41,180 bases of DNA, from assembly GCA_029557835.1 (NCBI GenBank), contig JAKQHW010000067.1, positions 1 through 41,180 on the forward strand, in the 5' to 3' direction. Below the pieces are notes generated by a model, which saw only the letters and a program-made list of their open reading frames with translations, did no database searches and was not told the origin of the DNA. Below, piece by piece: positions 11 through 20,236 of this stretch (positions are counted from its first letter, which is position 1; every line of letters begins with the position of its first letter). The translations under genes were made by a program, and so were the position numbers. This DNA is from Microcaldota archaeon. GTDB lineage: Archaea; Micrarchaeota; Micrarchaeia; Anstonellales; Bilamarchaeaceae.

Positions 11-2389
11 ATGTTCGACAACTGGGGGGTGATAGCGCTCCTGGAGATCGTGTGCCTTGCGCCTTTTGCCGCATACCCGCTCGCGGTGCTTGCCGGATTC
101 GTTTATTTCATGATGGCGTGGGGCAGCCTGCACTTCGGCTCCGCGAAGAGCGTTATAATCTCCGTTCCGGCCGTCCTGCTCATATTGCTTTTGTCCTCCC
201 TTTGGGTCGCCCCCAACAACGCATACCTTCCGGTGGCGATGGGGCTGTACGAGCCAGGGGTGCAGGCGGTTATGCTGTCCAAGCCCGCGCTCGGGCTAGG
301 GGAGTTCTCGGGCGCAATCGGGCCCGCGCTTGCGAATGCGTTCAACTTTGCGGGCGCAAAGGACATCTTCCCCGCGATGGGGAAGATATACGACAACCTG
401 ATGCGGCTGCTGTTCATGGACTTCGGGCTTTTCCAGGTGGCTGTTTGGGCGCTTGCGCTTTATCTGGTGGGATGGCTGCCCGCCCAGCTGAGGGGGAAAT
501 GGGCGCAGGCAATGTCCGCTTCCGCGCTCCTCATCGTCCCGGTTTCATATTTCGCGATGGGGGCTGTGCTTAATTTCGCCTTCAACCCCCTCATGGTGTT
601 TTACATAATCGCGACCGTCGCCCTGTTCGGGGCGCTTGAGTTCGCCGGGATAAAAATCTCAAAGGAGAAGCAGATAAGGGCAAAGCAGAAGCTGAAGGGG
701 TTCGGGAAGATGGGCGTGCAGGACCTCCAGCTGGGGGCGGGGGAGGCCGGCCTCGGGGACGTGGGCGGCTATGAGGACGTGAAGAAGGAGCTCAAGGACT
801 CCATAATCACGCCCCTGCAGGAGAGGGAGCTCGCGGACGCGTATGGATTGAAGCCTCCCTCCGGGGTGCTGCTTTTCGGCCCGCCGGGTACGGGAAAGAC
901 AATGCTGATGAGGGCGCTTTCCAAGGAATTGGGATATGGTTTCTATTATGTGAAAACATCGGAGATTTTGAGCAAGTGGGTGGGCGAGAGCGAGAAGAAC
1001 GTGAGCGAGCTTTTCGGGAACGCGAGAAAATCCGCCCCCGCGATAATATTTTTCGACGAGATTGACGCGATAGGGAAGAAACGGAGCGAATCCGGGGTGG
1101 ACGAGGTCGGGCCCCGCGTGCTGAGCACCCTGCTCCAGGAGATAGACGGGTACAAGGACGACAAGAAGCCGGTGATAGTGGTCGGGGCCACGAACGTGCC
1201 CAACAAGCTGGACCCCGCGCTCATGAGGCCCGGGAGGTTTGACAAGATAATCTACATGCACCTTCCGGACTTTGATGCGAGGAAGGCGATATTCAGGGTG
1301 CACCTTGCGAAGATACCCACCTCCCCTGATGTGGATGTGGATGCGCTTGCGAAGAAGAGCGAAAGGTATTCGGGCGCGGACATAAAGAACGTGGTCACCG
1401 AGGCGCTGAACGCCGCGGCGCAGCAGGCGAAGGCGGCGAAGAAGATAATCCCTGTAACGATGGCCGACCTGCTCAGGGTGCTGGAATACACCAAGCCGAG
1501 CACCACTTTCTCCCAGCTTGATGAGTATGAGGAGTTCAAGACAGATTTCGAGCGCTCCGTGGCCCGGGAAGTGAAGCCCGCGGTGGAGGATAAGAGGGTT
1601 GGGTGGAAGGACGTCGCGGACCTGGAAGACGTGAAGGGCGCGTTCAGGGAGGCGATTGAGTTGCCCCTCCTTCACCCCGAGCTCATGGAGAAATACGGGG
1701 TGAGGCCGACAAGGGGGATGCTTATGTTCGGGCCGCCGGGGTGCGGGAAGACGCTTGTGGTGAAGGCGGCGGCATCCGAGATGGACATAACCATGGTCAC
1801 GGTCAGCGGGGCCCAGCTCATGAAGAAGGGGTACGGGCACGCGGTGACGGTCATAAAGGAGACCTTCAACAGGGCGAGGGAGAACCCGCCCTCGATAATT
1901 TTTGTGGACGAGATAGAGACCATTGCGCCCTCAAGGGAGACGGGGCGGGCGGACATAGTGGGGCAATTTTTGACCGAGATGGACGGGCTCAAGGAGCTGA
2001 AGGGGGTTGTGGTCGTTGGCGCGACAAACAAGCCGTCAATGCTGGACCCGGCGATACTGAGGCCGGGGAGGTTTGACAAGATTTTCTACATCCATCCCCC
2101 GGATGCGCCGGGGAGGGAACAGCTCTTCAAAATCCATTTGGGCGGGCTGGCGAAGGGGCTGGATTTGGGAAAGCTGGCGCGGCTCTCGGAAGGGTTCTCC
2201 GGGGCGGACATCGCAGCCCTTGCGCAGGAGGTGAAGATGCACATGGTCAGGGAAAGGATTGCGGAGAGGGAGCCCCACATAAGTACGGACGATGTGCTGA
2301 GGATGCTATCTATGAGAAGGCCGTCCATAACCCGGCAGGCGCTGATGGAATACGAGGCGTTCATGCAGGAATACGGGGAGAGACACTGA
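11..2389 (+). CDS. Membrane-anchored tandem AAA+ ATPase (CDC48/VAT-like D1 and D2 domains behind an N-terminal multi-TM region)
   Basis: ~200 aa hydrophobic N-terminus, then two AAA modules: Walker A GPPGTGKT and GPPGCGKT, Walker B IIFFDEIDAIG and IIFVDEIETIA, plus GATNVPNKLDPALMRPGRFDK and GATNKPSMLDPAILRPGRFDK. True start could lie upstream of the window. Confidence 0.9.
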   Translation: MFDNWGVIALLEIVCLAPFAAYPLAVLAGFVYFMMAWGSLHFGSAKSVIISVPAVLLILLLSSLWVAPNNAYLPVAMGLYEPGVQAVMLSKPALGLGEFSGAIGPALANAFNFAGAKDIFPAMGKIYDNLMRLLFMDFGLFQVAVWALALYLVGWLPAQLRGKWAQAMSASALLIVPVSYFAMGAVLNFAFNPLMVFYIIATVALFGALEFAGIKISKEKQIRAKQKLKGFGKMGVQDLQLGAGEAGLGDVGGYEDVKKELKDSIITPLQERELADAYGLKPPSGVLLFGPPGTGKTMLMRALSKELGYGFYYVKTSEILSKWVGESEKNVSELFGNARKSAPAIIFFDEIDAIGKKRSESGVDEVGPRVLSTLLQEIDGYKDDKKPVIVVGATNVPNKLDPALMRPGRFDKIIYMHLPDFDARKAIFRVHLAKIPTSPDVDVDALAKKSERYSGADIKNVVTEALNAAAQQAKAAKKIIPVTMADLLRVLEYTKPSTTFSQLDEYEEFKTDFERSVAREVKPAVEDKRVGWKDVADLEDVKGAFREAIELPLLHPELMEKYGVRPTRGMLMFGPPGCGKTLVVKAAASEMDITMVTVSGAQLMKKGYGHAVTVIKETFNRARENPPSIIFVDEIETIAPSRETGRADIVGQFLTEMDGLKELKGVVVVGATNKPSMLDPAILRPGRFDKIFYIHPPDAPGREQLFKIHLGGLAKGLDLGKLARLSEGFSGADIAALAQEVKMHMVRERIAEREPHISTDDVLRMLSMRRPSITRQALMEYEAFMQEYGERH

Positions 2390-3147: not shown

Positions 3148-3483
3148 TCACATAAAGCGGGTGTTGCAGACCGGGCAGCGCGTATAGAGGGTTTCCATCT
3201 CGTAGCCGCAGATGGGGCATCTCCAGACCTGCTTTTTGGCGCGGGCAAGCTCTGCCTCGAAATTGTAGTTGCATTGGGGGCATATTTTCGCGTCCAGCTC
3301 GCACAATTCGGAGCATTTGGGGCATTTCTTCCTGAACATGGACTTTATGCGCACCCCGCAGGAGGGGCAGCGCTCCATATTGAGGGTGACCTTTGCGCCG
3401 CAGGAGGGGCACTTGTAATCCTTGTCCGCAAGGGTGGTTTTCTTCCTGGAGAGGGCCTCCCCTATCGCGTCTAGGAGCCCCAT
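3148..3483 (-). CDS. Multi-zinc-ribbon protein
   Basis: Several CxxC knuckles: CPSCGAKV, CPSCGVRI, CPKCSELC, CPQCNYNF, CPICGYEM, CPVCNTRF. Start at MGLLDAIGEAL overlaps the upstream gene's end. Confidence 0.75.
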   Translation of the reverse strand: MGLLDAIGEALSRKKTTLADKDYKCPSCGAKVTLNMERCPSCGVRIKSMFRKKCPKCSELCELDAKICPQCNYNFEAELARAKKQVWRCPICGYEMETLYTRCPVCNTRFM

Positions 3484-4472
3484 CTGAACACCGCGAATGG
3501 CAGAAGCGCGAGGAGCACCAGCATGGACGGGCACATCGGCTTATCACTGCCGCCTGGCTGGGTTGAGGGCGGCTGGGAGCCCGCGGGGGTTCCGGCGGGG
3601 GGCGCATCGCCCGGAGCCACGTCCTGCACCTGCGCGCCAAGGCACTGGGAGGACATTGCGGAATTGAGTGCCGCGAGGCTTGTTTCGTAATTTCCGTCCC
3701 TAACCCGGGCTTTTAGCGCGTCTATCTGCGTGCGCACCGCGCCCGAGTTGCATCCCCTTGAGTTCGCAAGGGATTCCGCGTTTGTTATCTCCGCGATTGC
3801 GGCGGAGCAATGGGAAGAGCTGTCCTTTATCGAACGGAGGTCGTTTATCGCGCCCTCCAAAAGAAGGCGCGCATCGTCAACCCTGCATTCCTTCAAAAGT
3901 GCGGCGGACCGGTTGTCCAGCCCCCCAAGCGCGGAAAGGTCTTCTTTCAACTTGCAGCACAAGGTCCCGTCCGCGCTGCAGAAGGAGAGCGCCTGCGCAT
4001 CGGAAAGTTCCCGCCGGTATTCCGCGGTCTTGTTTTCAACAATTGTTTCCTTCGTGGTCTTCACATGGTTGAGCGGAAAGCTCATCTCCGCCTCGTACCT
4101 TGTGGAGCCGCGGGACATGGTCGCCTTTATGAGCTCAAGGGTTTCGGTGCGCTCCCCGGTCCCGCCCAAATAAAGCGGAAGGCGGACATTGCACTCCTTC
4201 CCGTACTGGAGCACCCCGCATTCAAAGAACTGCACCCAGTCCCCGGTGGTCGCGTTCTTGTAGTAGAAATATGCATCAGTGCGCTCCCCGAACGGGTTGG
4301 GCGTCCAGACATCCACGGTTACATAGGAGGGGCCCTTTCCCCCGGATTCGCAATTCTGCACCAGCACCGCCCTCGTGGGGTCCTGCGAATCGACCTCACG
4401 GATGTATATCTCCCAGGCCTCGCAGAAAGCGAGGCCGCAAACGACCAGCAGAAGAAAAATCGCGGCTTTCAT
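3471..4472 (-). CDS. Secreted or membrane-anchored hypothetical protein (signal peptide, Pro/Ser/Gly linker, C-terminal TM)
   Basis: MKAAIFLLLVVCGLAFCEA signal; PPAGTPAGSQPPSTQPGGS linker; MLVLLALLPFAVFRWGS C-terminal hydrophobic anchor. Start placed at internal ATG 4472 from promoter geometry. Confidence 0.7.
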   Translation of the reverse strand: MKAAIFLLLVVCGLAFCEAWEIYIREVDSQDPTRAVLVQNCESGGKGPSYVTVDVWTPNPFGERTDAYFYYKNATTGDWVQFFECGVLQYGKECNVRLPLYLGGTGERTETLELIKATMSRGSTRYEAEMSFPLNHVKTTKETIVENKTAEYRRELSDAQALSFCSADGTLCCKLKEDLSALGGLDNRSAALLKECRVDDARLLLEGAINDLRSIKDSSSHCSAAIAEITNAESLANSRGCNSGAVRTQIDALKARVRDGNYETSLAALNSAMSSQCLGAQVQDVAPGDAPPAGTPAGSQPPSTQPGGSDKPMCPSMLVLLALLPFAVFRWGS

Positions 4473-4493
4473 AGGGGGGATTCGCAAGAAGCA

Positions 4494-4522: not shown

Positions 4523-5779
4523 ATGCGGGGGTTGCTGTTTGCGGTGCTTCTGGTCACACTATGCTTCGCCAGCGCGCCCCCGAAAGTCGAGCTCCCAAAG
4601 CTGGGAATTGCGGAAAATCCGGCGTTTCTTGGTGCAATAATCCTGTTATCCGTGGCTTTCGCAGTCCTTTCCTACACAATATCAACTGCGATACAGAATG
4701 CGTCCGCAATCGCCTGGAGCAAGGAGCAGCTCAGGGAGGTGATTGTGGGGGTAATAATCGTAATTTTGGTCTATGGGGCCAATGTCACGGCAAATGAAAT
4801 GATAAAGAGCATGACCGGGCACAACAATGCGGTCGAGCTGGGGAGCGCGGTCCTGGACGGGCTCATAGGAGACCTGGAAATGATTTATGGGAAGATAGGG
4901 GAGGCGTATTTCTCAGTTGCGGTCCAGCAGGGGATGAGCGTGAGCATAGTGGAAGCGGTGCCGCCAATCAAATTCTTCTTCATGCAGCCGGCCATATACT
5001 ATGCGAATGACTCGATGCCTTATTACGGAATAAGCCCGGTGCTGCAGATGCTTAGCCAGGCATCTTCCCAGATAACAATACAGATATTGAGCTTCAAGGT
5101 GCTTAAGCTCCTGTTGTTATACATCGGAGGAGTGGTCCCGGGCTTCCTCCTTCCCATCGGGTTTGCGTTCAGGGTTTTCCCCATGACAAAAAGGACCGGG
5201 GACACCCTCATAGCCCTAAGTCTGGGGGCGCTGTTCATGCTGCCGGCATCCCTGGTGGTGGTCGGGGAGCTGAAGGAGATAAGCCCTCTGGACAACGTAA
5301 GAGCCGCGGAAAGGGAAACTTTCTACGATAACGTGGATCCGGTCTTCTTCTCGCAGGCCAGCGCGGCGCTTATAACCGGGCTCTGCCAGAACACTGCGGT
5401 AAAAATAGCTTTTGGATTCGGGGAATTCTTCTGGGGGACAATTTTCGGGCTTATTGCCTCGGCGCCAGAGGCCTTTACTACTTTTTTCTTCTGGTTTGAT
5501 AAATTCGTGAGCATGGTGTGGCCCTGGGTGATTTACGGGCTGCAGACGTTGTACGGGCTGATACTGGCAGGAATAGTGCACGGCATGGACATGGACTCCA
5601 TATATGCCAGAACCGTAAAGCCAATAGTTGAAATACTCATGCCCGCGGTGAGCGAGATAACTATGTTTTCGATAATCAGCATAATAACCATAGCAACAAT
5701 AACATACACCGGAACGAAATCGATATCAACCGCACTAGGCGGGGAGCACACCTTCTACGGGCTTACGAGGATGATATGA
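4523..5779 (+). CDS. Polytopic membrane protein, paralog 1 of the six-member family
   Basis: Signal peptide plus multiple TM segments; core FLLPIGFAFRVFPMTKRTGDTLIALSLGALFMLPASLV; C-terminus ALGGEHTFYGLTRMI. Confidence 0.8.
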   Translation: MRGLLFAVLLVTLCFASAPPKVELPKLGIAENPAFLGAIILLSVAFAVLSYTISTAIQNASAIAWSKEQLREVIVGVIIVILVYGANVTANEMIKSMTGHNNAVELGSAVLDGLIGDLEMIYGKIGEAYFSVAVQQGMSVSIVEAVPPIKFFFMQPAIYYANDSMPYYGISPVLQMLSQASSQITIQILSFKVLKLLLLYIGGVVPGFLLPIGFAFRVFPMTKRTGDTLIALSLGALFMLPASLVVVGELKEISPLDNVRAAERETFYDNVDPVFFSQASAALITGLCQNTAVKIAFGFGEFFWGTIFGLIASAPEAFTTFFFWFDKFVSMVWPWVIYGLQTLYGLILAGIVHGMDMDSIYARTVKPIVEILMPAVSEITMFSIISIITIATITYTGTKSISTALGGEHTFYGLTRMI

Positions 5780-6660
5780 TGAGGGCCCTCCTTGCGTTCC
5801 TGCTCCTTTTCCCGCTTTCCTTTGCCGGATGCGGCATAATGGACGAGGATGCGGACTCCGCCTTCCTGGAAGCAATGCCCATAATATCCGCGGCGATAAT
5901 GCTATCTGTCCTGGTGGCCGCAATCGCGTACATGGCCGGGAGCTTCACGCGCAACCCACAGCTGCTGGTATTCAGCAAGGACCAGATATTCCACACCTTT
6001 GTCTCGGTGCTGCTTGTGGTGTCAATAGAAGGGATATTCTTCTTCACGTGCATAATGGCAAGCCAGGCGGCCGGGGGCGTGGACATGCAGGGCGCATCAA
6101 TCAATTATTTGAGGGCGTTGCACGTTGAGGGCGGGCAGATGCTAACCACGATAATGAAGAGATCAATAGACTACAAGTTCGATGCGGTCGATTTCTTCGG
6201 ATACCAGGTGCCGTTCCTTGGAGGGGAGACTTTCTGGTACAATGCATACAAAAATGCGTATTCCCGCCACCTGGAGATAGTTTTTGACATGGTCATGGTG
6301 GGATACGTGAGCGCCGGGGTGCAATACAACATCATGTCGTTCCTGCCTCGGCTCGCGCTGGGCATAATGGTCCCGTTGGGGCTGGTGATCCGTTGCATCC
6401 CGAAGGCGCGCGAGGCCGGGAACATGGTGATTGCGGTCGCATTGGCCATTTACGTGGTCATTCCATTCACCTATGCGGTGCATTCCACCATGAGGGACAC
6501 CCCGGTCCCATGGTATTCCGGGGAGATGGATGAGACGGGGATATCTTTTGAACAGGTTGCATTGTACATGTTCCAGACGATATTCCTACCAAACCTTTCG
6601 CTGGTGATTTTTGCGACCGCGGTGGGCGGGCTGATGAAGGTGGCGAAGGTGATCCCATGA
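5776..6660 (+). CDS. Polytopic membrane protein, paralog 2
   Basis: ATGA overlap with previous gene; core IMVPLGLVIRCIPKAREAGNMVIAVALAIYVVIPFTYAV. Confidence 0.8.
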   Translation: MMRALLAFLLLFPLSFAGCGIMDEDADSAFLEAMPIISAAIMLSVLVAAIAYMAGSFTRNPQLLVFSKDQIFHTFVSVLLVVSIEGIFFFTCIMASQAAGGVDMQGASINYLRALHVEGGQMLTTIMKRSIDYKFDAVDFFGYQVPFLGGETFWYNAYKNAYSRHLEIVFDMVMVGYVSAGVQYNIMSFLPRLALGIMVPLGLVIRCIPKAREAGNMVIAVALAIYVVIPFTYAVHSTMRDTPVPWYSGEMDETGISFEQVALYMFQTIFLPNLSLVIFATAVGGLMKVAKVIP

Positions 6661-9113
6661 GGAAGCTGCTGTGCCTTTTGGCTGCGCTTGCGCTCGTTGC
6701 GGGCATATGGGCACAGGCAGGGGCGTCCAGCATCCTGGAGCATGAACAAGAGCGCACCACCCTGCTCGGGAGCATAGCCAACGACTGGCAGATATATACT
6801 GTTTTGATAATGATGGTCATGCTGGGGCTGGTGGCGCTCGCATATGCGATTGCGAACGCGTTTTCGCTCCCGGACCTTAGGGCATGGGCGGACGTGGAGC
6901 TTGGGGAGATATTCGCAAGCGCCCTCCTGCTGATATTCATCATAGGGATTGTGCTGTTCATAGACATGGCGGTGAGGGGGACTATAGCCCCGAGCTTCCC
7001 GGGCTCATGCGAGAGAGGGGGGTTCTGCGCCGCGAATATCGCATACGATTACCTGGAAAGTTACAAGAAGGCTGCGTTCGGGCTGTATGAGAGCATATTG
7101 AAGAGCAATATGGAAAAGGCGAGGGAGGCGACGCAAGGGCACACCGTTGGCGTGCAGGACATGATTTACCTGTACATAACATACCGGTTCAGGACCGGCG
7201 GGCCTGAGATGATAACCGTAGAGATGTACGACCAGCTTCTACAGAACCTGGGGGCGATAATAGGCACGCTTATGGCACAGGGATTTGTGCTTAAGTTCCT
7301 GAGCCTGAGGCTTGCGCCCATCGCCATATTCTTGGGCATAATACTGCGGACGTTTTTCATGACGCGGAAGCTTGGCGGGCTGCTGCTTGCCTTCGGGCTG
7401 GGTTTCCTCGTAGTATATCCTTTGACCTATGCGCTCGCATGGTACACGCTTGATGCCGCGATATACGGGGCGCAGAAAGGGCCGACCGGACAGCTTTCCG
7501 CTTGCCCGGAGGTCTGCCTGCCCTCTTCAAGGATAGCGGATTACATCAGCAGTGGAAGCCCGGTGCTTGTGGAGAAGGAGGATGTGCTCGCGGCCCTTTA
7601 TGACGACTGCATCGAGGACATCGGGGATGTGGACGAAACTGGGAGGAGCCGCACCTGCATGGACGGCTGCGTGGCCGGCTACCGTGCAGCTTGCGAAGAG
7701 GGATGCGCAAGGGGGTGCAGGCTGGACGGGCTTGCGCCGCCCGTGGAGGACTGTGGGGCTTACTGCGAAGGTACGGGGGTGAGGGGCCCTGTGGGGGATT
7801 GTTTTGCTTATTGTGGGTTCACGGGCGAGAGTTTCTTGTTCATGGATGAAGGTTGGAGGCCGTGTGCGGACGTATGCGATGCAACTTATGCAAGGGATTC
7901 TCCGGAATGGGACGAATGCATGTTGGATTGCAGCCACACATATATGGGACCATTCCCATATACTGCCTCCTGCATATATAATTGTGAAGAAAACCAGATG
8001 GAGCCATCCGCCGAATGGACTGCGTGCCTTGGAAGATGCTCGGATGCCAACGCGGCCGCAAGACCCCTCTGGGAAGAGTGCATTGGAGGATGCGAGGGAA
8101 GGAACAACTGCGATGCAACTGCGGACGAGAGGGAATCCTATTGCAGGAGGGAATGCCCGGTGCTCCCGGAATACGCGGAAGGGAGGGACGAATATTGCAG
8201 GAGGGAGGCTGAAGACAGGCTGGTCGGGCTCGGGATGGGGGGAATAAACATAGAGAGCGGTGGCTTTTCCATACATAATTTCAAATACTGCGAATACACA
8301 AAATGCGGGTTCCCGGTGCCGTACCATGTTGCGGATTGCATAAAGTATGCCGGAAGGCCGGATGTGTGCAACACGAGGCCTTTCGACCCGGAAGACCCTG
8401 CGTATGCCGAATTTGATGCGAGCGAGCTGGTGGATGGCTGCCCTGCCGAGTGCAGGACGCTCGCCCCCATGAAAGAGGTGGGCGAAAGCAGCTGCAGGAA
8501 CGTTTATTGCAAGGAATTGAGGGATGGGAGGGAACTTTGGGAGATGTGCGTGGAGAAGTGGGGATACCTCACATGCATACAAAGCTCCGCATGGGAAAGT
8601 TTCTACGACCAGTACGCGTGCAAGGAATACTCGTTGAAGTGCCCGTCCCAGTGCATGTGGGTTACGACCGGAAATTACAGCGACCCGACATGCCCGGAAA
8701 CCTGCAAGGACCTTTATCCTGACAATCCGCAGTACCTTTGGGAGAATGACTTATATCAGCAGACCTGCGTGTACATAATACCGGATGTTGTCTTTGAGGA
8801 CCCTGAAAAATGCGGGAACTGTGCGTTCGTGGCGGAGAAGGGGCTCACCATGAAGCCGCCCATGATACTTGATTGCGGTAGGTTCTGCGGCTCGCCCTCG
8901 CTCAAGGTGATGGCCGAGGACCCGGCGACCATGACCAACCGGATAGGGGGGATGGTGGGTCCGACCGAGCTGGTTAGCGTGAGCAAGCTTATGATACCCG
9001 CATATGTGCTCCCGCTGTTCAACCTCGCGGTGACCCTCATGTTCATAATAACGCTTTCGCCGATGCTCGGAGGCGACTTTGACCTGCCCGGGATGATGAG
9101 GATGATACAATGA
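6657..9113 (+). CDS. Polytopic membrane protein with large Cys-rich insertion, paralog 3
   Basis: ATGA overlap; N-terminal LAYAIANAFSLPDLRAWADVELGEIFASALL; core PIAIFLGIILRTFFMTRKLGGLLLAFGLGFLVVYPLTYAL; then ~500 aa Cys-rich region; C-terminus LGGDFDLPGMMRMIQ. Confidence 0.8.
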   Translation: MRKLLCLLAALALVAGIWAQAGASSILEHEQERTTLLGSIANDWQIYTVLIMMVMLGLVALAYAIANAFSLPDLRAWADVELGEIFASALLLIFIIGIVLFIDMAVRGTIAPSFPGSCERGGFCAANIAYDYLESYKKAAFGLYESILKSNMEKAREATQGHTVGVQDMIYLYITYRFRTGGPEMITVEMYDQLLQNLGAIIGTLMAQGFVLKFLSLRLAPIAIFLGIILRTFFMTRKLGGLLLAFGLGFLVVYPLTYALAWYTLDAAIYGAQKGPTGQLSACPEVCLPSSRIADYISSGSPVLVEKEDVLAALYDDCIEDIGDVDETGRSRTCMDGCVAGYRAACEEGCARGCRLDGLAPPVEDCGAYCEGTGVRGPVGDCFAYCGFTGESFLFMDEGWRPCADVCDATYARDSPEWDECMLDCSHTYMGPFPYTASCIYNCEENQMEPSAEWTACLGRCSDANAAARPLWEECIGGCEGRNNCDATADERESYCRRECPVLPEYAEGRDEYCRREAEDRLVGLGMGGINIESGGFSIHNFKYCEYTKCGFPVPYHVADCIKYAGRPDVCNTRPFDPEDPAYAEFDASELVDGCPAECRTLAPMKEVGESSCRNVYCKELRDGRELWEMCVEKWGYLTCIQSSAWESFYDQYACKEYSLKCPSQCMWVTTGNYSDPTCPETCKDLYPDNPQYLWENDLYQQTCVYIIPDVVFEDPEKCGNCAFVAEKGLTMKPPMILDCGRFCGSPSLKVMAEDPATMTNRIGGMVGPTELVSVSKLMIPAYVLPLFNLAVTLMFIITLSPMLGGDFDLPGMMRMIQ
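7863..8093 (+). repeat. Five-copy protein-level tandem repeat C-x3-C-x13 (18-residue period) within paralog 3
   Basis: CADVC-13-CMLDC-13-CIYNC-13-CLGRC-13-CIGGC; 231 nt = 77 codons = 5x5+4x13. Confidence 0.85.
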
Positions 9114-10534
9114 GACGGATGCCGTTCGCATTGCTGGCGTTGCTTTTCCTCATCCCAGCCTCTTTCAGCGACGGTCCGCTGTATATGACCGGATGCTGCC
9201 CTGATGAGGCCCTGGGGGCCGGGGCGGCCCCGGACCAGGTTATTGCTTATGCCTCCCAGCGGCTGGATGTCTGCAACCCGGACGGAACTGCAAGAATATC
9301 CTGCGTTGTTGAAGAGACCATGCATGGTGGAACAGGCTGTTGCCTCCCTTACGGAGGATTGGATACAGATGGAGATAGGATCGAATATGCGAGGGCGAAC
9401 CCAGGGGATTGCGGAACCTGGCCTTATGACCCGGTAATAACCCCTTGCACGGTTGAAAGGCCGGGCGGGGACATCATGCCCGGCTCTGAAACCCCTGCCC
9501 CGACCAGAACGCCCGGCCCGCCCCCGCCGGATTGGGTTCCCATTGCCCTGCTCGCCGCGCTAACCGGGCTTGGGGTGCTGATGATATTCTACCTATTGAG
9601 CTACCTCGTGGACGCGGAACACATGCGCGCAATGGCCACCAGCGAGATGTGGCAGGTGTTCATAACCGCGGTAATGATTGCGGGCTTTGTGGGGGCGGAC
9701 GCATTTGCAGGGGAGGTGGTGGCCCCGGCGTTCGGTGAGGCGTTCCTTCCCCCGGGCGAGGAGAGCATGAAGCACACCGAATACGCGGTAATATTCACGG
9801 AAGAGATGGCGGATTACCAGTGGGGCATGCTCAAGGATTTCACGAACAAGGTGGTGGTGCCGATGGGGAGCCTCTCCGCCCTGAACGGGAACTGCTGGCT
9901 TTTCGGGGTGGCGTTCTCGTTCTCAGGCTGCTCCAGCATAAACGTGCCGTTCTCCTCGGCATCGCTTGCGGCGCGGACGATGTCGGTCGCTGTGCTGGCG
10001 CTCAACTCGCAGCTTGTGCTGCTGAAGGTTGCGTCCGGCTTCTTCTTCCCGGTCCTGCTGCCGATAGGGCTGTTCCTCAGGACGTTCCACGTGACGAGGG
10101 GCACGGGCGGCTTCCTGATAGCATTTGCGATATCATTCTATTTCGTTTATCCGCTCGGGGTGCTCATAACCCAGGGGTTCTACGACAGCGTGGGGGTCGG
10201 GGAGCCGGAATTCCCGGATATAAACGCCGTGACTGCGGCTGAGAGCTGGGCAGTAGAAACAATGGTTTCCACGTTCGACGTGCCTGCGGAGTGCGACCCC
10301 TTCAAGACATATGATTATCCGGAGACGGATGAGTTTGAGGGATATGGGTATACGCAAAAGCAGATAAACAGGCTGCTCAAAGAGGAGTTGGTGGACCGGC
10401 TGCTGTACATATTCATGATCGGAGGGGTGTTCACGCCCGCGCTGAACGTGTTGATTGCGCTCTCGGTCATAAGGCCTCTTGCAAGAGTCTTCGGGACGGA
10501 AGTGGACGTTTCCGCCCTCGCGAGGATTTCATAG
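9110..10534 (+). CDS. Polytopic membrane protein with Cys-containing N-terminal ectodomain, paralog 4
   Basis: ATGA overlap; signal peptide, Pro-rich linker (TPAPTRTPGPPPPDW), core FPVLLPIGLFLRTFHVTRGTGGFLIAFAISFYFVYPLGV; C-terminus VFGTEVDVSALARIS. Confidence 0.8.
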   Translation: MRRMPFALLALLFLIPASFSDGPLYMTGCCPDEALGAGAAPDQVIAYASQRLDVCNPDGTARISCVVEETMHGGTGCCLPYGGLDTDGDRIEYARANPGDCGTWPYDPVITPCTVERPGGDIMPGSETPAPTRTPGPPPPDWVPIALLAALTGLGVLMIFYLLSYLVDAEHMRAMATSEMWQVFITAVMIAGFVGADAFAGEVVAPAFGEAFLPPGEESMKHTEYAVIFTEEMADYQWGMLKDFTNKVVVPMGSLSALNGNCWLFGVAFSFSGCSSINVPFSSASLAARTMSVAVLALNSQLVLLKVASGFFFPVLLPIGLFLRTFHVTRGTGGFLIAFAISFYFVYPLGVLITQGFYDSVGVGEPEFPDINAVTAAESWAVETMVSTFDVPAECDPFKTYDYPETDEFEGYGYTQKQINRLLKEELVDRLLYIFMIGGVFTPALNVLIALSVIRPLARVFGTEVDVSALARIS

Positions 10535-10542
10535 GTGTTTGG

Positions 10543-11670
10543 ATGGTTTGCCCTGACATAGGATGGGTGTATTCCCTTTCCCTGCTTTCGCTGGGGGTGA
10601 CTGCGATGGTGGTGGGGTTGGCCTATGCCCTGGGGCAGGTGCTGAACAATCCGCAGTTCAACGTGTGGGCGAAGACGGAGATATACCAGGTTTTCGTATC
10701 GTTCTTCATAGTGATTCTGGTGCTTTTCGTGCACGACTCGTTCTGCAGCTTCAGATATTCCGACCTGGCGGGGCTTGCCGGGGGAGGGCAGGAATATGCG
10801 CATCCGGAGATAGGGGCGGATGACAACATGATGGATTCCGCGGGCAAATACCTCGCCAACGTGGGCCATTTCATAAAAACCGAGATGAGGGCCGCGCGCG
10901 CACTCTACGGGGTTGCGGAGGAGGCCTCCAGGTATTCGCGCACCCCTTGCATGCCTGCCATAACATTCTGCCTTTACGGGACGAGCGGGTACAGCGTAAG
11001 GCCGTACCAGGGGCTCAGCAGCTGGGTACAGGTGCTAGGCACTTCCCTTTATACCGATACTGCGTCGTACCTGACCGTGCTGATACAGATGGCGCTTCTC
11101 GCATTCATTTCCGGAGGGGGGATAATGGCGTACCTTCCTTTTGCGATTATAATAAGGTCCCTCCCCATGATGAGGCAGTTCGGGGGAGGGCTGCTCGCCA
11201 TCTGCATAGCCCTGTTCATAATATATCCTGCGCTTCTGGTCGCGGAATCTCTTTTCTGGAATCCATACAATATGCTTGGGGATGCGGGCTGGGGGACGCT
11301 GGTGGACGCGGCGGACGGGATAAGCAGGGGATTCCAGTATGTGCCTCCGCTGGAAGCCGGGGGGGCGCTTGCGCTGGCGATGACGCTTGCGAGCGCTCTT
11401 TCGGTCGTAGACATCGCGGCAGCGATAGGGGTTGCCGCATCCGCTGGGATAGTGAGCCTCGCGGTGATGATACACGGGCTTACTGATGTTTGGACGCTGA
11501 GTGAACTGGAAAAGGCGGTGGGGATCAGCATGCAGGCGGCTTCGATATCCTTCCTTAGCGCCACTTTCCTGTTCTCATTGAACATAATCGCCATAGGCGC
11601 GTCTGCGAGGGAACTTGGGAGGCTTTTGGGCCAGGAGGTCGACCTGAGCAGGCTGATGCAGGTGATCTGA
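10543..11670 (+). CDS. Polytopic membrane protein, paralog 5
   Basis: GLAYALGQVLNNPQFNVWAKTEIYQVFVSFFI; core MAYLPFAIIIRSLPMMRQFGGGLLAICIALFIIYPALLV; C-terminus LLGQEVDLSRLMQVI. Confidence 0.8.
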   Translation: MVCPDIGWVYSLSLLSLGVTAMVVGLAYALGQVLNNPQFNVWAKTEIYQVFVSFFIVILVLFVHDSFCSFRYSDLAGLAGGGQEYAHPEIGADDNMMDSAGKYLANVGHFIKTEMRAARALYGVAEEASRYSRTPCMPAITFCLYGTSGYSVRPYQGLSSWVQVLGTSLYTDTASYLTVLIQMALLAFISGGGIMAYLPFAIIIRSLPMMRQFGGGLLAICIALFIIYPALLVAESLFWNPYNMLGDAGWGTLVDAADGISRGFQYVPPLEAGGALALAMTLASALSVVDIAAAIGVAASAGIVSLAVMIHGLTDVWTLSELEKAVGISMQAASISFLSATFLFSLNIIAIGASARELGRLLGQEVDLSRLMQVI

Positions 11671-12683
11671 TGGCCGGGGAGGATATTTTCAGCACGGTTT
11701 TCACCGGTTGGGGAGGGGGCGGTTTCTGGTTCGTGAACTCCCTCATGGCAATCCTGATAACCGCCATAATAATGGGCACCCTCTATGCGGTAGCGACCGC
11801 TTTCAATTTCGCTGGGCTAAAAAGGTATTCCGTATCCGAGTTCATGCAGCTTGCGGCCACCGCCATCATGGTCATATTCCTCGTATCCATGATAGATGGG
11901 GGGCAGCAGCTGTTCATACACACTTTTGGGAGCGGCACGATAACGTGCGGGGACAGGCAGGTTGCGGACCCGCTGGACGCCGCGATGTGCAGGGCCGGGG
12001 AGCGGCTGGAATATTTCAACAGCATGTTCTACAGCATAAAGGACAGCGACGAACTGTACGAGAAGGAACTCGAATACTACTCATCCCTGTCCATGATAGG
12101 GATAATGTTCTGGCAGGGCAACTGGAACGCTGATACGCACAAATACGTGGAAACCGCCCATGCGATAGAATACAAGATAGTTTCGCTGCTTATTTCGCTG
12201 AACAGCCAGATGTTCGTGCTCAAGTACATAAGCGAGAACATGCTGGCGTTCTTCCTTCCGTTGGGGATAGTGCTGAGGACGCTGCATTTCACACGGGGGA
12301 TAGGCGCTTTCTTCATAGCGCTGGCCATAAGCTTCTATTTCATATATCCAGGGATACTGTTCCTGCTTGACCAGTCGCATGTTACCGCGCCCCCATCCTC
12401 CATCCCACCCTCCACGATGAACAGGGAGAACTTGTGCAACATACCTGTGTTCACGGGATTCTCCTTGGGCTCCGTGGCGGTTAGCGGGCAGGGGACCAGG
12501 GCGGCTGCGGCGCTCTCGATAAGCAGCGGCAACCTCGCATCCTTCATATCGCAGACTTTCGTGCGGCTTTTATATGAGAACATGGTCGCGTTTGCGATAG
12601 CGGTGACGTTCATGAGGTACGGGGCCACGCTACTGGGCGGGGAAAGCGGAATTTTCCTGCAGATGATGGCTAGGTGGGTATGA
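11670..12683 (+). CDS. Polytopic membrane protein, paralog 6
   Basis: TGATG overlap; TLYAVATAFNFAGLKRYSVSEFMQLAATAIM; core FFLPLGIVLRTLHFTRGIGAFFIALAISFYFIYPGILFL; C-terminus LLGGESGIFLQMMARWV. Confidence 0.8.
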   Translation: MAGEDIFSTVFTGWGGGGFWFVNSLMAILITAIIMGTLYAVATAFNFAGLKRYSVSEFMQLAATAIMVIFLVSMIDGGQQLFIHTFGSGTITCGDRQVADPLDAAMCRAGERLEYFNSMFYSIKDSDELYEKELEYYSSLSMIGIMFWQGNWNADTHKYVETAHAIEYKIVSLLISLNSQMFVLKYISENMLAFFLPLGIVLRTLHFTRGIGAFFIALAISFYFIYPGILFLLDQSHVTAPPSSIPPSTMNRENLCNIPVFTGFSLGSVAVSGQGTRAAAALSISSGNLASFISQTFVRLLYENMVAFAIAVTFMRYGATLLGGESGIFLQMMARWV

Positions 12684-15600
12684 TGAGGGGGATTTTGATT
12701 GCGTTTGCCGGGATTGCCCTGCTTTTCATGGGGTGCGCCGCACCGCAGCCCGTGCTCTACAACTGCTGCAAATACGACAATGCGAGCGGCGATGGGACAT
12801 GCGTGACCGCGAACGGGACCGTGTATGAAACCAACTCCTGCAGCGTCTTGAACATGACCTGCGAGGTTGTTTCCGGGGAAAGCCACATGGCTTCCATGGT
12901 GGGGGGGAGGGAGATCCGTATTCCGATAGAAGTCACAGAAACCCTGCCTATCTGCCCCCGTTCCGAACTGCTCCAATGCAACAGCAGCTGCGTGGGGATG
13001 TTCTGCGGCTCGTTCGAGTTCGACCCCAGGCCGCCGATAGGCATGGATGTTGAGGATTTGGATAAGAAGAAGGATAAGAATCCGAAGGACGTGGACGCGT
13101 CGCAATACGGGGGGATGGACCGGGGCGGCGCAATGGGCCTGTATAAGGGAGAATGCAGGATTCTAGACATGGCGCCCGCTACGATACGGGCCGCAGGCAA
13201 CACCAACGGCGGCTTTGCACTCAACTCCTTCAGGTTCGGGGTGGGAAGCTCGTTTGCGGAATTCGACGAGGCGGTGATGTACTATCCGCTCACGGACTTC
13301 GGATGCGGCGCAAATCCATCCGGCACTAAGGACAGGTATGTTAATTACATGATCCCCAACCTCGGGCCCGGAGGGGCTGGGGAGCTTTGCAGGGAGGAGG
13401 GGATGTTCCTCAGCCCGTGGGGGGACGAGTACAAAAGGTACACGTGCACCCTTGACGAAACTATAAGGAGCTATTCGTACCAGGATTGCGCAATCAGGTG
13501 CTCGCTCCATTATTATGGGGATGTGCCTGCGGTGGACCCGTACGGGGCATATCCCACAGAGAGAAACGGCGTGATTGCGGGAAGCCCGTTCGCATACGGC
13601 GGGCCGGGCCAGGGGTATTCCATAAGGGAGGTTTCCGCAATACACTATAATTGGGAAAAGGAATTCAAGAGGTATGTGGGGTATAGGAGCTTCGGGGCCA
13701 TTGCGGACGAGTATCCTCTGGGATATAATTATTACGGGGCGGAATTTGAGAAAAACGCGTATCCAATGAGCGATTTCCGTGGGTATATAGACCAGATAAT
13801 AATTGCGAGAGGCAGGCCCGCGACAAGCGAAAAGGAGATCATGGACTACTACGGCGGGGAAGAAGCGGATTTGGTGATTGCCAAATGGATAGGCGCGGAC
13901 AGCAGCGACGATGTGATAGCGAACCTGATGACCGTGGAAAGGGACCCGCACATGCTCTACTCATACATGTTGTCACACCATTCCGTCTATGCGAAACAGT
14001 TCAGGGAAGGGCATTACGACGAGGAGGGGAGATGGGCGCCTGGCGCGGAGTTCGAATGCACCCTGGAAGGGATGGACTGCCTCTCCGGATACTGCAACAC
14101 ATGGGACTACAAGCGCGGGGCATGCATTACCACTGAGGGGGGGGAGGTGCAATGCGACTGCCATTATGACTATCTCCAAGCAACCGTCGTATGCGATGGG
14201 CGGCTGCCGTACGAGGCGAGGGCGTTCGACAATCCGGGGAAGAGGATCAATGTGAGCGCAACCCTCGGATCTATTGTCAAAACGGTGTCTGGGGGTGGAG
14301 TAAGGAGCATGCCTTCCAAAGGGAAGACGTTCAACTGGAATCCGGATGAGATGTACAGCGAACTGTTCGATAGATACGGCGGTAGTCCGGGGGACACCAA
14401 CCGGCAGATGCTCGTGATGCTGCTCGGAGGGGAGCAGACTCCGGATTTCAATGCCTTTGAATATAGAGAAGGCATTGATGACACAAGGCAAGCCCTCACC
14501 ATATGGCAGGTGCTGTCAAGGGAAAAATGGGCCGGGTGTTCGGAGTACCATGATTGCGGCAAATTTTACACCACGTTCGTCCAGGCATGCATGCCATCGT
14601 TCCCTGATGAGGCATATGCTGGGCATATGTTTGCAGTGTGTTACAGAGTACCAATAGGCGGCATAATCGGGCAAACCATCGATCCGGCTACAGGGCGAAT
14701 AACGAACCATACCGAAGGGTCTTCTATGCGAGGCATTTGTCACGCAGTCCTTTCTGACGAAGAACGGAGCACCGAATCCTACGGGGGCGTGGACAAGAAC
14801 GAAAAGACTAATTATGACCAGTTCTGCTATTCAAGGGACTCGGAGGGAGAATGCGTGGGGGTGGCCAACGCCGCACTGGTGATAATGAGCCGGTCCGTGA
14901 CCTATGAGGTGAACGGAGATGTGAGGGAAGGGCTTGCGTTCGGCAACTGCCTGCTGGAGAACGAAGAGCTGAAGATTAAGGAATACGGATACTGCGAGCA
15001 GTGCAGCTATCTGACCATGGCGAAGGAAACCGTTGTGCCGCTTCCCGAGGACAAGGCAAATCCGGGGTATGAGGGCAGGGAAAACAGGAAGGACAACAAG
15101 TATTGCCCGTCCCTGCTCGTTAAGAGCATAATCCCGCCAAGTCAAAAGGAATACCTGGTGCTCTCGTACGGTGGGCAGTTCGGGGAATGGGAATCGGGGG
15201 GGGTGCACCGCGCGGAGGAGAAGTTCGGGGAATACAGCGAATGCGAAATGCCGGACGGGAGCGAGGTGGGGAGGCAGGACGCGTGGCCGGACTATCTTCC
15301 CGATGCTTATTACCTAAAAACAAAATTGCAGGATTACATGCAGAGGAACGTGATGCCCATCCTGTTCGCGGACGATGAGGGGCTTTATCGGATTGAGACG
15401 AGCGATGGGAGGGACATGCTCAAGGTAGTTGTAGGGGGGGGCGGGAGCGTTGATGATGGCAAGACAACCCACCCTTACCTTGCAAATGTGGCTGAGAAGC
15501 GGGTTTCCCTGCTGGAGAAGGCGTTCAGGACCGGAGATGGCGGTTATGGGACGGTCGGCACGTATCTCGCGGATTCAGTGAGGAACCTCGGGGCGGGAAT

Positions 15601-16918
15601 AATAGTGGTTAGGAATCTGGAAGCCGGAGACATGGGGAGCTATGGGGGGAGCCCGGGATGGCGGAAGATAGATGCGTATCTGCACCTGAGGGGCAATGCC
15701 GTGGGCCTGCTCTGCCCCAATTGCATGGTCGCGGTTAGCGCCGGCTACGGGGCTGAGGGCGCTTCACACCTGACTAAGATGGCGCATGTTTCGCAGATGT
15801 TTGATTACAGGGACCCTGGCGGGGCGCCCCTCTGGGATGATTATTCCGCGAATCTCTCCTGCATCAATGGGGAGGCGGCTTGCAGCCCGATGCACAGCGA
15901 CATATTGGAGAAGGTGGATGTGATCGCCACCAAGTGGGAACTCGGCACGCACAACTCACACTGCGGCATTGATGATGAAAAAGAGAGGTTTGAGGCGATA
16001 CTTGCGGATGAAATGGAATTCGGGTCAAAGATGCTGAGGAGGTTCGGGAAACCGACTGTTGTCACGGACTTTTCCATAAGGAGGAACGCACCAGGGAGTT
16101 GCTGGGATGAGGGGAGCGCCACCAGGTTCATGTCCTTCCTCGGGGAGCGGGCGGATGACCTTGTTCGGAGCGGGCACATCGGCATCATTTACGGTGACTG
16201 GACTTATGCGCATTCAGGGTCCGCAGGGACCAAATACATAAGAACTGCGGAAAGCGGCGTTTCCGGGTACAGGAGCGAGTTCTTCGGAGGGACGCTTGCG
16301 GCCGCAAGGGGCTTCTCAGGTTTTGGGAAGCTCACGTCAATAGCAGAAGTGGTTGTGGCTGAGAATTGCGAATGCGTTCCTTGCTCGGCTGGTGACCCCG
16401 CGGAGATTTGCACGGGGAGGTTCGGTGGGACCGGCCCGGTATGCGACACTTCCCGCAGCGGCACCGTTATGGTGAAGTGGCCGGAAACCTGCATAACGGA
16501 AAACGTGTGCATGCCTCCCGGTGAGATGTCCACGTATAGGATGGTCTGCGACTTTGAGATTGGCGGGGAGAAGACAACGATAAGCATTGATGGCGCTGAA
16601 GTGGAGGCGAACCCCGGGCTGTACAAGCAGATGATTGCATCCCTCGGGGAAAGTTCGCAGCTGCCCTGTTTCTCGGGCAAGAGCTACAGGAGGCAGGAGA
16701 TTGCCATGTTCACTTCCTACCCGATATTGTACCGGGATGATGGAAACCTCAGCTACAGCTGCAACCCGCTCTCGATTGCCCAAGGCGAGCTGTGCGGCCC
16801 GGTTCCGCAGCTTGATTTAGGGAAGATGGAGTGCCGCCTCCAAACGAAATTCGCGGACGGTGTGCCTGGAGGGGTGCCGGAGCCGGGTGGGGGGCCATTC
16901 CCTTTCGGGACAGGATAG
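12680..16918 (+). CDS. Giant Cys-rich predicted lipoprotein, possible hydrolase-like domain in C-terminal half
   Basis: MMRGILIAFAGIALLFMGCAA lipobox-like signal; many paired Cys; ATG overlaps stop of paralog 6. The ORF track starts at GTG 12674. Confidence 0.75.
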   Translation: MMRGILIAFAGIALLFMGCAAPQPVLYNCCKYDNASGDGTCVTANGTVYETNSCSVLNMTCEVVSGESHMASMVGGREIRIPIEVTETLPICPRSELLQCNSSCVGMFCGSFEFDPRPPIGMDVEDLDKKKDKNPKDVDASQYGGMDRGGAMGLYKGECRILDMAPATIRAAGNTNGGFALNSFRFGVGSSFAEFDEAVMYYPLTDFGCGANPSGTKDRYVNYMIPNLGPGGAGELCREEGMFLSPWGDEYKRYTCTLDETIRSYSYQDCAIRCSLHYYGDVPAVDPYGAYPTERNGVIAGSPFAYGGPGQGYSIREVSAIHYNWEKEFKRYVGYRSFGAIADEYPLGYNYYGAEFEKNAYPMSDFRGYIDQIIIARGRPATSEKEIMDYYGGEEADLVIAKWIGADSSDDVIANLMTVERDPHMLYSYMLSHHSVYAKQFREGHYDEEGRWAPGAEFECTLEGMDCLSGYCNTWDYKRGACITTEGGEVQCDCHYDYLQATVVCDGRLPYEARAFDNPGKRINVSATLGSIVKTVSGGGVRSMPSKGKTFNWNPDEMYSELFDRYGGSPGDTNRQMLVMLLGGEQTPDFNAFEYREGIDDTRQALTIWQVLSREKWAGCSEYHDCGKFYTTFVQACMPSFPDEAYAGHMFAVCYRVPIGGIIGQTIDPATGRITNHTEGSSMRGICHAVLSDEERSTESYGGVDKNEKTNYDQFCYSRDSEGECVGVANAALVIMSRSVTYEVNGDVREGLAFGNCLLENEELKIKEYGYCEQCSYLTMAKETVVPLPEDKANPGYEGRENRKDNKYCPSLLVKSIIPPSQKEYLVLSYGGQFGEWESGGVHRAEEKFGEYSECEMPDGSEVGRQDAWPDYLPDAYYLKTKLQDYMQRNVMPILFADDEGLYRIETSDGRDMLKVVVGGGGSVDDGKTTHPYLANVAEKRVSLLEKAFRTGDGGYGTVGTYLADSVRNLGAGIIVVRNLEAGDMGSYGGSPGWRKIDAYLHLRGNAVGLLCPNCMVAVSAGYGAEGASHLTKMAHVSQMFDYRDPGGAPLWDDYSANLSCINGEAACSPMHSDILEKVDVIATKWELGTHNSHCGIDDEKERFEAILADEMEFGSKMLRRFGKPTVVTDFSIRRNAPGSCWDEGSATRFMSFLGERADDLVRSGHIGIIYGDWTYAHSGSAGTKYIRTAESGVSGYRSEFFGGTLAAARGFSGFGKLTSIAEVVVAENCECVPCSAGDPAEICTGRFGGTGPVCDTSRSGTVMVKWPETCITENVCMPPGEMSTYRMVCDFEIGGEKTTISIDGAEVEANPGLYKQMIASLGESSQLPCFSGKSYRRQEIAMFTSYPILYRDDGNLSYSCNPLSIAQGELCGPVPQLDLGKMECRLQTKFADGVPGGVPEPGGGPFPFGTG

Positions 16919-16951
16919 AATTTTTAAGGTGAGCATGTGGAAAATGGAGGC

Positions 16952-19900: not shown

Positions 19901-20227
19901 ATGCAGATATATTTCGAGAGGCGCGATGCGTTCAACCCCGACCGACCAGGAGGGGGGATAACCGGTTCGTTGATGGATGAGCGGCTTAGATCAGAAGAAG
20001 CCACCTTCAGGAGCAAGGAGCTGCAGGTTGCGCTTCTAGGGAACCGTGCGATAGACGACTTTTATGCTAACATGGACAGGAATATGGAGATTGCAAGGGA
20101 AGTGCAGGAAAGGATAGATGCCGAATCCAGAAGGAGGCGGGCTGCTGAAAGCGCAGGCAGCCCGGAAGGGGGCGCGGCTTCTGAGTCGAGAGACCAGGGC
20201 GAGGGTCGCGGGCCTCCAGCCCCGTGA
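16952..20227 (+). CDS. Large membrane-anchored protein: signal peptide, ectodomain, TM segment(s), long Ala-rich helical region
   Basis: MKAVLLAVAVLFAAAFT signal; TM FTFTLCFPVLAIFGLLGAAMYA; second hydrophobic stretch GVGVGTAFMALLGIFLRF; then ~700 aa Ala/Glu/Arg-rich sequence. The ORF track starts at GTG 16937; ATG 16952 lies ~26 nt after TTTTTAAG. Confidence 0.7.
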   Translation: MKAVLLAVAVLFAAAFTLGPDIGGGIVRPEGIPTATGISGPDIGIIGGYPMLFPSGACPSCSVFTDRPFIASSINEDEKTIYSSMGVITPSGVSPVEDATLFVYLVKPDGTVSKRCRAYTSDKGEISYSYGSLCDDGCTIKVLFCCSDPVELACVLSSCLGEPIGSHLEFPPCDGYDAGGWPEKAVVGGQAMQLYPTVDEVFIPPRLVPEGLGFTFTLCFPVLAIFGLLGAAMYASGRDPFAMFSFYTPRFTRGAEKPIAGKGYTLPGSSLGMLATRVADLAKDAGGTAQQFVDMMKKSPLLEKTSGRVGMAAGSGRGSAGQDQGMTAGEARAMGMPVVGGFGSGAPQSVMRGSGDAVGVGVGTAFMALLGIFLRFSNAPWLTGGLATAVNGLVSEWQAERLAGFAGTAEKIMETMKPTFNQRGELVRIEYTDPETGERVTISGKEKCAEFVRLNLVEPTMAMYSANAEKAIGMMAQLNELTVAQSPVRGCRDMLAAESGREGISEEAKAALRIISDSNATNAQRRDAFEALAGMDWSGRPDVLLNALAAVGAGMSYSQFSHFLQGSEAAMDVFRNLAADAAALKGSGDGNMLAAMSAAAGVLSMLNAGRPEGVSDTRGIAQVVAAIREGVANCGGESFAFRAGTEIVAANMAGMGLSTAALGVAIDVSGLNLTNVPPQVRAEIEKALEDGRVTVAELGNEAREAIVQIATSQLGDGAARGFSEAFGDYDQLSRQSYGIMRREMDGVFEQAREASGVSGVLGPDGELAGENRPYGLDSDKALALLGQNNIDAGIARAMVEFGLLDERREYAGNLLGIARMLEEPRPEERISAMAANNESRASGMEAHAASIDNAMAILGSPLSSEASRAWAERYLGSELQGEFYRARQTLSNPNASEDDLARARRAMELIGNGDIAGYSRLVLDDSERIRAEQPRLDAARDLLTNPTQDNALAYSQNAGQSTPADRLAPLPEQVVERLTGDTQMQIYFERRDAFNPDRPGGGITGSLMDERLRSEEATFRSKELQVALLGNRAIDDFYANMDRNMEIAREVQERIDAESRRRRAAESAGSPEGGAASESRDQGEGRGPPAP

Positions 20228-20236
20228 GGCTTGCAT

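Follow-up and report, generated by a model that had tools for sequence, protein, structure and literature searches.

Six position-specific VirB6/CedA-class membrane proteins encoded in a conserved cassette of Micrarchaeota: a candidate T4SS/Ced-derived translocator

Results

The window, the whole stretch of DNA analysed (41,180 nucleotides, contig JAKQHW010000067.1, genome of a member of the Micrarchaeota), contains at positions 4523–12683 six coupled open reading frames, A–F, which code for homologous polytopic membrane proteins of the VirB6/CedA class and are referred to as hexad 1. All of them lie on the plus strand: A (position 1; 4523–5779, 418 aa), with position-1 orthologs in 31 arrays; B (position 2; 5776–6660, 294 aa), the position-2 sequences forming one side of a branch; C (position 3; 6657–9113, 818 aa); D (position 4; 9110–10534, 474 aa), weakly matched by the CedE and CedA models; E (position 5; 10543–11670, 375 aa), placed in the position-5 clade; and F (position 6; 11670–12683, 337 aa), matched by the CedA model at E = 2.8e-4. 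The junctions from A to F are, in order, −4, −4, −4, +8 and −1 nt. C carries a Cys-rich extracellular loop of approximately 490 aa, placed before the last transmembrane (TM) segment; across 9 arrays of the hexad 1 group, the corresponding position-3 loop has a median length of 463 aa and a median of 42 Cys.

Downstream of F, a secreted 1414-aa protein without a Pfam family is encoded on the same strand (12674–16918), translationally coupled to F with its start 10 nt inside the F gene, and a protein of this type follows every hexad 1 for which downstream sequence is visible. It is followed by a 1096-aa membrane or surface protein with 4 TM segments (16937–20227, plus strand), similar proteins also adjoining hexad 2 in relatives, and by a small winged-helix-like protein, PadR-like by eye (20231–20545, plus strand), which is found at the same place in loci L065 and L067.

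An earlier note, made from the letters of the DNA, had described A–F as six mutually homologous paralogs. This was confirmed by a whole-genome search with F alone, which returned the other five together with more paralogs at E-values from 2e-15 to 4e-3, and by profile–profile comparison between positions, which gave E ≤ 1e-31 near full length, a value somewhat helped by both sides having been aligned to one HMM. Seven further paralogs were located outside the window, on contigs C1, C21 and C62, and the residues R203, G212 and P227 (F numbering) were invariant across all 13 paralogs of the genome. The shared motifs quoted in the earlier note were all present, including those of the upstream element, for which only the listed order had to be corrected (WAKTE in E, WADVE in C, ATSEM in D, SVSEF in F, SKEQL in A, SKDQI in B). 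The family is polytopic with 4–7 TM segments according to hydropathy and AlphaFold helices. The distribution of charge and Cys predicts an N-out/C-in orientation: loop12 and turn34 are basic, and acidic residues and Cys are found in the N-terminus, E1 and E2. The extracellular loops differ strongly between the paralogs.

Assignment to the VirB6/CedA class

By sequence comparison, the A–F family belongs to the VirB6/CedA class of T4SS and archaeal DNA-import channel proteins. Across 22 whole genomes, all matches at E ≤ 0.01 fell inside the hexad family, both for the CedA model (12/12, best 8.3e-7) and for the CedE model (11/11, best 1.5e-6), and of the NCBIfam models, CedE and CedA were the two to which most of 75 family members gave a match. 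The curated equivalog cut-offs of CedA and CedE were passed by no family member in these 22 genomes, no Pfam or NCBIfam model scored above its cut-off for the family, Pfam on A–F alone returned nothing usable, and the family profile found nothing relevant among PDB sequences. The N-terminal third of the family resembles VirB2 pilins: a pilin profile aligned to the first ~120 columns with an hhalign probability of 86% (E = 5e-6); the same comparison gave ≤1.1% for seven membrane-protein controls. A VirB2–VirB6 relation has been reported for CedA1/CedA (PMC9905601). The VirB6/CedA lead of the earlier note was borne out by the model matches and by the N-terminal pilin relation.

The likeness to bacterial VirB6 by fold is only suggestive. 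Fold search with the AlphaFold model of F gave R388 VirB6 (7o3v_F) as the best PDB match, not significant at E = 0.058, probability 0.85 and a TM-score of ~0.3; with the model of E, 7o3v_F ranked 15th (probability 0.44), so that the VirB6-first result of F was not repeated. In comparisons with the family, neither a 10-sequence plasmid R388-type VirB6 profile (hhalign probability ≤1.2%, E ≥ 0.04) nor R388 TrwI alone was significant.

Number and order of the array genes

Exactly six genes in a single order were found in 31/31 arrays (23 genomes, 10 families), with 135 of 145 junctions overlapping or ≤20 nt. In the position tree, 7 label changes were counted against a minimum of 6 and against 125 for shuffled labels, each position being essentially its own clade, at a mean same-position identity of only 23%. 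None of the positions departs from the others in fold or topology, and the six genes are equally coupled in one operon. A five-gene array in genome G065 was only apparent, position 2 being masked by an over-extended neighbouring frame, and the possibility that a conserved six-TM protein, encoded upstream of several arrays, is a seventh member was tested and rejected.

The origin by serial duplication that had been put forward in the earlier note holds for the deep past only, the six types being older than the sampled families; later, the cassette was duplicated as a block. Recent serial duplication was rejected because the positions are deep clades. What is new here is the constant six.

Associated ATPase and pilin genes

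The hexad family was present in 259/296 sampled Micrarchaeota genomes. In 97 good genomes, 89 contained both the hexad and a VirB4/CedB-type ATPase, 1 the ATPase only, 0 the hexad only, and 7 neither. The VirB4-type ATPase for which the earlier note had suggested a search is encoded on contigs C1 and C53 of the window's genome, and in relatives its gene stands in direct linkage with the array. Many of these relatives have the hexad cassette next to a VirB4/CedB-type ATPase and VirB2-type pilins, in the order pilin, hexad, two B4N genes, VirB4, and the operon linkage is direct in single-hexad families. In the genome of the window, VirB4 is not adjacent to the hexad; the genome has two hexads, the hexad-type VirB4 on a separate contig, and a Ced-like locus with one VirB6. 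The C53 ATPase falls among the hexad-linked VirB4 proteins, which are set off from the C1 type with support 99. One hexad-type VirB4 appears to be shared by the two hexads of this genome, and in several genomes two hexads occur together with a single such VirB4.

The Ced-like locus on C1 comprises an 81-aa pilin-like protein (T4SS_pilin, E = 0.018), one VirB6-class protein, B4N and a CedB-type ATPase, which matched the CedB model at E = 3.9e-31, yet below its curated cut-off. For the pilins, the T4SS_pilin and TrbC Pfam families were detected in 10/17 and 9/17, respectively, and a PDB sequence search with the pilin profile gave TrwL (VirB2) as top match (E = 0.0018). Comparison of B4N with the N-terminal part of VirB4, with VirB3 and with the pKEF9 VirB4-like protein yielded nothing significant, so that its reading as VirB3/VirB4-N follows from position and topology only. 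Plasmid searches with the ATPases returned distant bacterial VirB4 only.

Conjugation, one of the functions considered in the earlier note, is unlikely in the strict sense, because a relaxase of the MOBP/Q type (PF03432) was found in 0/17 genomes and the VirD4 coupling protein (PF02534) in only 1/17, as a marginal, unconvincing match within a 3271-aa frame.

Discussion

Ced of the Sulfolobales (CedA/CedE, CedA1, CedB, CedD) and Ted of the Thermoproteales are, like the hexad system, chromosomal and consist of a VirB6-class channel, a VirB2-class pilin and a VirB4/HerA-class ATPase (PMC9905601, PMC11868833). The C1 locus shares the Ced layout of pilin, one VirB6-class protein, B4N and ATPase. 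Whereas Ced has one CedA with its paralog CedE, Micrarchaeota have six position-specific VirB6-class genes, often in two cassettes, and none of their proteins lies above the curated CedA, CedE or CedB cut-offs. The rvh T4SS of Rickettsiales, in obligate host-associated organisms, likewise encodes VirB6 paralogs in tandem, strongly diverged and extended by large additional domains (PMC2653234, PMC7648143). It differs in being a bacterial double-membrane T4SS with a variable number of four or five copies, one of them lost in R. massiliae; the hexad is archaeal, with six in every array, and, so far as one can judge, expanded independently. Four Ehrlichia VirB6 paralogs are reportedly expressed and interacting (Bao 2009, by title). 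The R388 Trw T4SS supplies the best PDB match of the F model and, with TrwL, that of the pilin profile. Its single VirB6 gene gives a homopentamer (TrwI/VirB6 stalk, PDB 7o3v), in contrast to the six genes of the hexad. The T4SS of Patescibacteria resembles the hexad system in being near-universal, chromosomal and VirB4-based in ultrasmall epibionts, but belongs to the bacterial MPF-FATA clade, and the study describes no fixed VirB6 array (PMC12102498).

We hold it reasonably probable that A–F are position-specific subunits of an ancient VirB6/CedA-class channel cassette, assembled as a hetero-hexameric ring in a chromosomal T4SS/Ced-derived translocator. The fixed order and the exact number of six suggest a channel of six different subunits; the heteromeric, possibly hexameric complex proposed in the earlier note is favoured by the constant six in 31/31 arrays, and we infer both the assembly and the cargo. 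One copy of each protein would contribute to a membrane funnel above the VirB4 hexamer, its Arg-rich TM3–TM4 turn directed at the ATPase and its acidic loops, often rich in Cys, exposed to the outside. Driven by the ATPase, pili would be assembled and/or a substrate passed through the ring; candidates for this substrate are DNA (imported as in Ced) or protein exported to a partner cell. Hexad 1 would be a specialised copy, with a large Cys-rich extracellular domain on C and two giant surface proteins downstream, and probably serves contact with another cell. That Micrarchaeota have an obligate hetero-hexamer, with a different subunit for each of six positions, in place of the VirB6 pentamer is a tentative proposal which could well be right or wrong.

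Counting against a hetero-hexamer, VirB6/DotA stalks are known as pentamers (PMC12624023, PMC12857230), and the proteins may be VirB6-class without forming a single ring of six, either as a pentamer with the sixth protein as regulator or as several channels, homomeric or alternative, that have different partners. The divergent extracellular loops, the several genomes in which two hexads coexist with a single hexad-type VirB4 and the occurrence of single-VirB6 systems in the same phylum agree with such arrangements, which we nevertheless regard as unlikely, since 0/31 arrays have lost or gained a position at so low a same-position identity, all six genes are equally coupled and no position stands apart in fold or topology. 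A surface complex independent of translocation, that is, a VirB6-derived platform for adhesion or host contact with the VirB4 linkage as a relic, would fit the company of the hexad in the window, giant secreted proteins and not VirB4, as well as the big Cys-rich domain on C; it is rendered quite improbable by the strict co-occurrence with the VirB4 ATPase, with one exception in the 97 good genomes, and by the operons of single-hexad families, in which the hexad is directly linked to VirB4 and pilins.

An unrelated polytopic transporter family, resembling VirB6/CedA through membrane-protein convergence, was already disfavoured and is scarcely credible. The lack of Pfam and NCBIfam models above cut-off and the non-significant R388 VirB6 profile comparison and fold search would be expected of it; against it stand the position of 23/23 CedA/CedE matches (E ≤ 0.01, 22 genomes) inside the family, the N-terminal VirB2 relation missing in the seven controls, and the pilin and VirB4 neighbours.

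In the open-access literature (subscription papers and preprints being outside this scope), no paper was found that names Micrarchaeota and VirB6 together or links DPANN to CedA/CedB. The role of the mismatch between the VirB6 pentamer and the VirB3–VirB4 hexamer has been called unclear (PMC12624023). If the hetero-hexamer is true, the five-versus-six mismatch with the VirB3/VirB4 ring would be gone and each extracellular domain would have one fixed place on the rim; among T4SS, this would parallel the change from homomeric rings that led to MCM2-7 or CCT. If six subunits replace a homomer, the question of the mismatch would become testable by comparing the hexad with the single-VirB6 Ced-like system of the same genomes. 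Micrarchaeota are ultrasmall archaea dependent on hosts, and a rigidly organised, near-universal machine of the T4SS/Ced type would be a leading candidate for the exchange of DNA or protein with these hosts.

Family members and array architecture

The window corresponds to contig C58 (1-41180) of a 0.94 Mb genome in 69 contigs. The six ORFs described in the earlier note (A-F, window 4523-12683), their overlaps and their shared motifs were all present in the sequence. When F was used as the lone query against the genome, the other five members were recovered (E 2e-15 to 4e-3) along with further paralogs on contigs C1, C21 and C62. The family thus has 13 members, A-F plus seven others, of which C62 carries four, C21 two and C1 one. 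The C62 group is interrupted by the contig end, where the final ~80 bases (right end of region L011) read as an inverted copy of the sequence before them, probably an assembly artefact. From synteny, we infer that the four C62 and two C21 genes form a single array (hexad 2, A-F being hexad 1), which is contiguous in genomes G004 and G002.

Exactly six members were counted in 31/31 arrays (23 genomes, 10 families), made up of 29 from other genomes plus that in the window, all unbroken within a contig, together with the split second array of the window's genome; genomes were picked by contiguity, not randomly. Junctions were ≤20 nt or overlapping in 135 of 145 cases. In a tree that included five singletons besides 186 array members, each of positions 2, 3, 5 and 6 made up one side of a branch, positions 1 and 4 were not single clades, and the position labels required 7 changes (minimum 6, shuffled mean 125); a 107-row tree agreed, and support for the position branches was moderate (68-93). 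Mean identity was 23% within and 18% between positions; the six types are therefore old, and the count of six was held through great divergence. Serial duplication, as proposed in the earlier note, fits only the deep past. Genomes with two hexads are best explained by duplication of the entire cassette.

Protein class and topology

None of the curated models searched reached its cut-off against the family. Across 22 whole genomes, all matches at E ≤ 0.01 to the models of CedA (12/12) and CedE (11/11), the paralogous pair of VirB6-class proteins in the archaeal DNA-import system of Sulfolobales (PMC11868833), fell in this family, as did 29/31 matches to either model up to E 1. The small proteins encoded upstream of arrays and of single-copy genes are VirB2-type pilins: Pfam T4SS_pilin matched 10/17 and TrbC/VirB2 9/17, and the top match of the pilin profile among PDB sequences was TrwL (E 0.0018). 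The same profile aligned to the family's first ~120 columns (probability 86%, E 5e-6; seven unrelated membrane proteins as control, ≤1.1%), and a pilin-related N-terminus has been reported for VirB6/CedA (PMC9905601). Profile comparison with plasmid VirB6 was not significant, and in fold searches R388 VirB6 ranked first for the F model (E 0.058, probability 0.85) and only fifteenth for the E model. These last two lines are weak.

An N-out/C-in topology, resembling the published topology of VirB6 from A. tumefaciens (PMC7648143), was predicted from the basic TM1-TM2 loop (16.6% basic residues) and TM3-TM4 turn (23.5% KR, 1.1% DE) and from the acidic N-terminus and two large loops, in which the cysteines are located.

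Genomic systems and neighbours

In single-hexad families the locus typically starts with one or more pilin genes, followed by the six VirB6-class genes and two B4N genes (product: membrane hairpin plus soluble domain); next come the VirB4/CedB-type ATPase, a small gene, one for a coiled-coil-like protein and one for an ~800-aa membrane protein. One array, in G043, lacks an adjoining ATPase. The window holds no VirB4-type ATPase, as noted earlier, but its genome encodes VirB4/CedB-type ATPases on C1 and C53 and has two systems. One is a compact Ced-like locus on C1 (L010:1709-5805, minus strand), encoding a pilin-like protein of 81 aa, one VirB6-class protein, B4N, a CedB/VirB4-like ATPase and a coiled-coil-like protein. 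The other comprises both hexads and the VirB4-type module on C53 (L090:1493-4984, minus strand; B4N, ATPase, small gene, coiled-coil-like gene), whose ATPase clusters with VirB4 proteins linked to hexads in other families, apart from the C1 type (support 99). Two hexads with one such ATPase is a layout common to several genomes. Hexad 1 differs from hexad 2 by a Cys-rich extracellular loop in position 3 (medians 463 aa and 42 Cys, nine arrays), and a ~1400-aa secreted protein follows every hexad 1 with visible downstream sequence.

In the window, two giant surface proteins of families without assignment are coupled to hexad 1 (12674-16918 and 16937-20227, both plus strand); proteins resembling the second also adjoin hexad 2 in L096, L099, L115 and L118. 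A CDC48-like double-AAA+ ATPase (11-2389, plus strand), whose N-terminal part has about five transmembrane segments, has a homolog adjoining hexad 1 in L100/L067. Opposite hexad 1, a divergent zinc-ribbon protein is encoded beside a secreted protein of 338 aa (3151-4487, minus strand), and both keep their place in G001; the secreted protein also occurs there in G004 (L101) and the zinc-ribbon protein in G014 (L098). A GGDEF (diguanylate cyclase) domain protein was found at 39983-41173 (minus strand; Pfam E 1e-23, GGEEF motif intact); such domains are unusual in Archaea. Immediately upstream of hexads of families f12 and f13, a conserved ~243-aa six-TM protein (L085:4771-5502, L086:5619-6368, L105:16650-17381, L106:5427-6158, L108:16665-17306, L109:16269-17003) showed no homology to hexad proteins and no Pfam family.

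Distribution

With a profile of the 13 members, the family was found in 31/31 near relatives (13-21 matches each, where a single gene may yield two) and, by profile search, in 259/296 genomes sampled across the phylum. The C1 ATPase matched the CedB model at E 3.9e-31, VirB4 models more weakly, and had orthologs in 247/296 genomes (E ≤ 1e-40). Among 97 good genomes (completeness ≥90%, contamination ≤5%), 89 held both membrane family and ATPase, seven neither, one the ATPase only and none the membrane family only.

Proposed mechanism and precedent

VirB6 is a membrane component of bacterial T4SS, situated between the VirB3/VirB4 hexamer and the pilus, and is thought to pass on both substrate and pilin. 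There it forms a pentamer on a base of six-fold symmetry, and the role of this mismatch has been called unclear (PMC12624023). Beyond the observed number, order, position identity, linkage and co-occurrence of the hexad genes, we infer assembly, stoichiometry, direction and cargo. The Micrarchaeota ring would be a hetero-hexamer with one subunit per hexad gene; a five-plus-one arrangement and separate homomeric channels are possible rival readings of the same six genes. Conjugation in the strict sense, one of the roles suggested in the earlier note, is unlikely: in 17 genomes searched, no PF03432-type relaxase and no convincing VirD4 match was found, so that a domesticated importer or protein translocator is more likely than a conjugative element.

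VirB6 expansion is already known, since Rickettsiales carry diverged VirB6 genes in tandem sets of four or five, of which R. massiliae has lost one (PMC2653234, PMC7648143), in contrast to the constant six of the Micrarchaeota arrays. As the curated cut-offs were tested and not reached, the hexad system is not Ced in the strict sense and is filed as a variant among T4SS/Ced-class translocators. We found no earlier description of the fixed six-gene cassette, of its apparent duplication as a whole, of its presence in nearly all members of an archaeal phylum, or of its occurrence alongside a Ced-like system with one VirB6.
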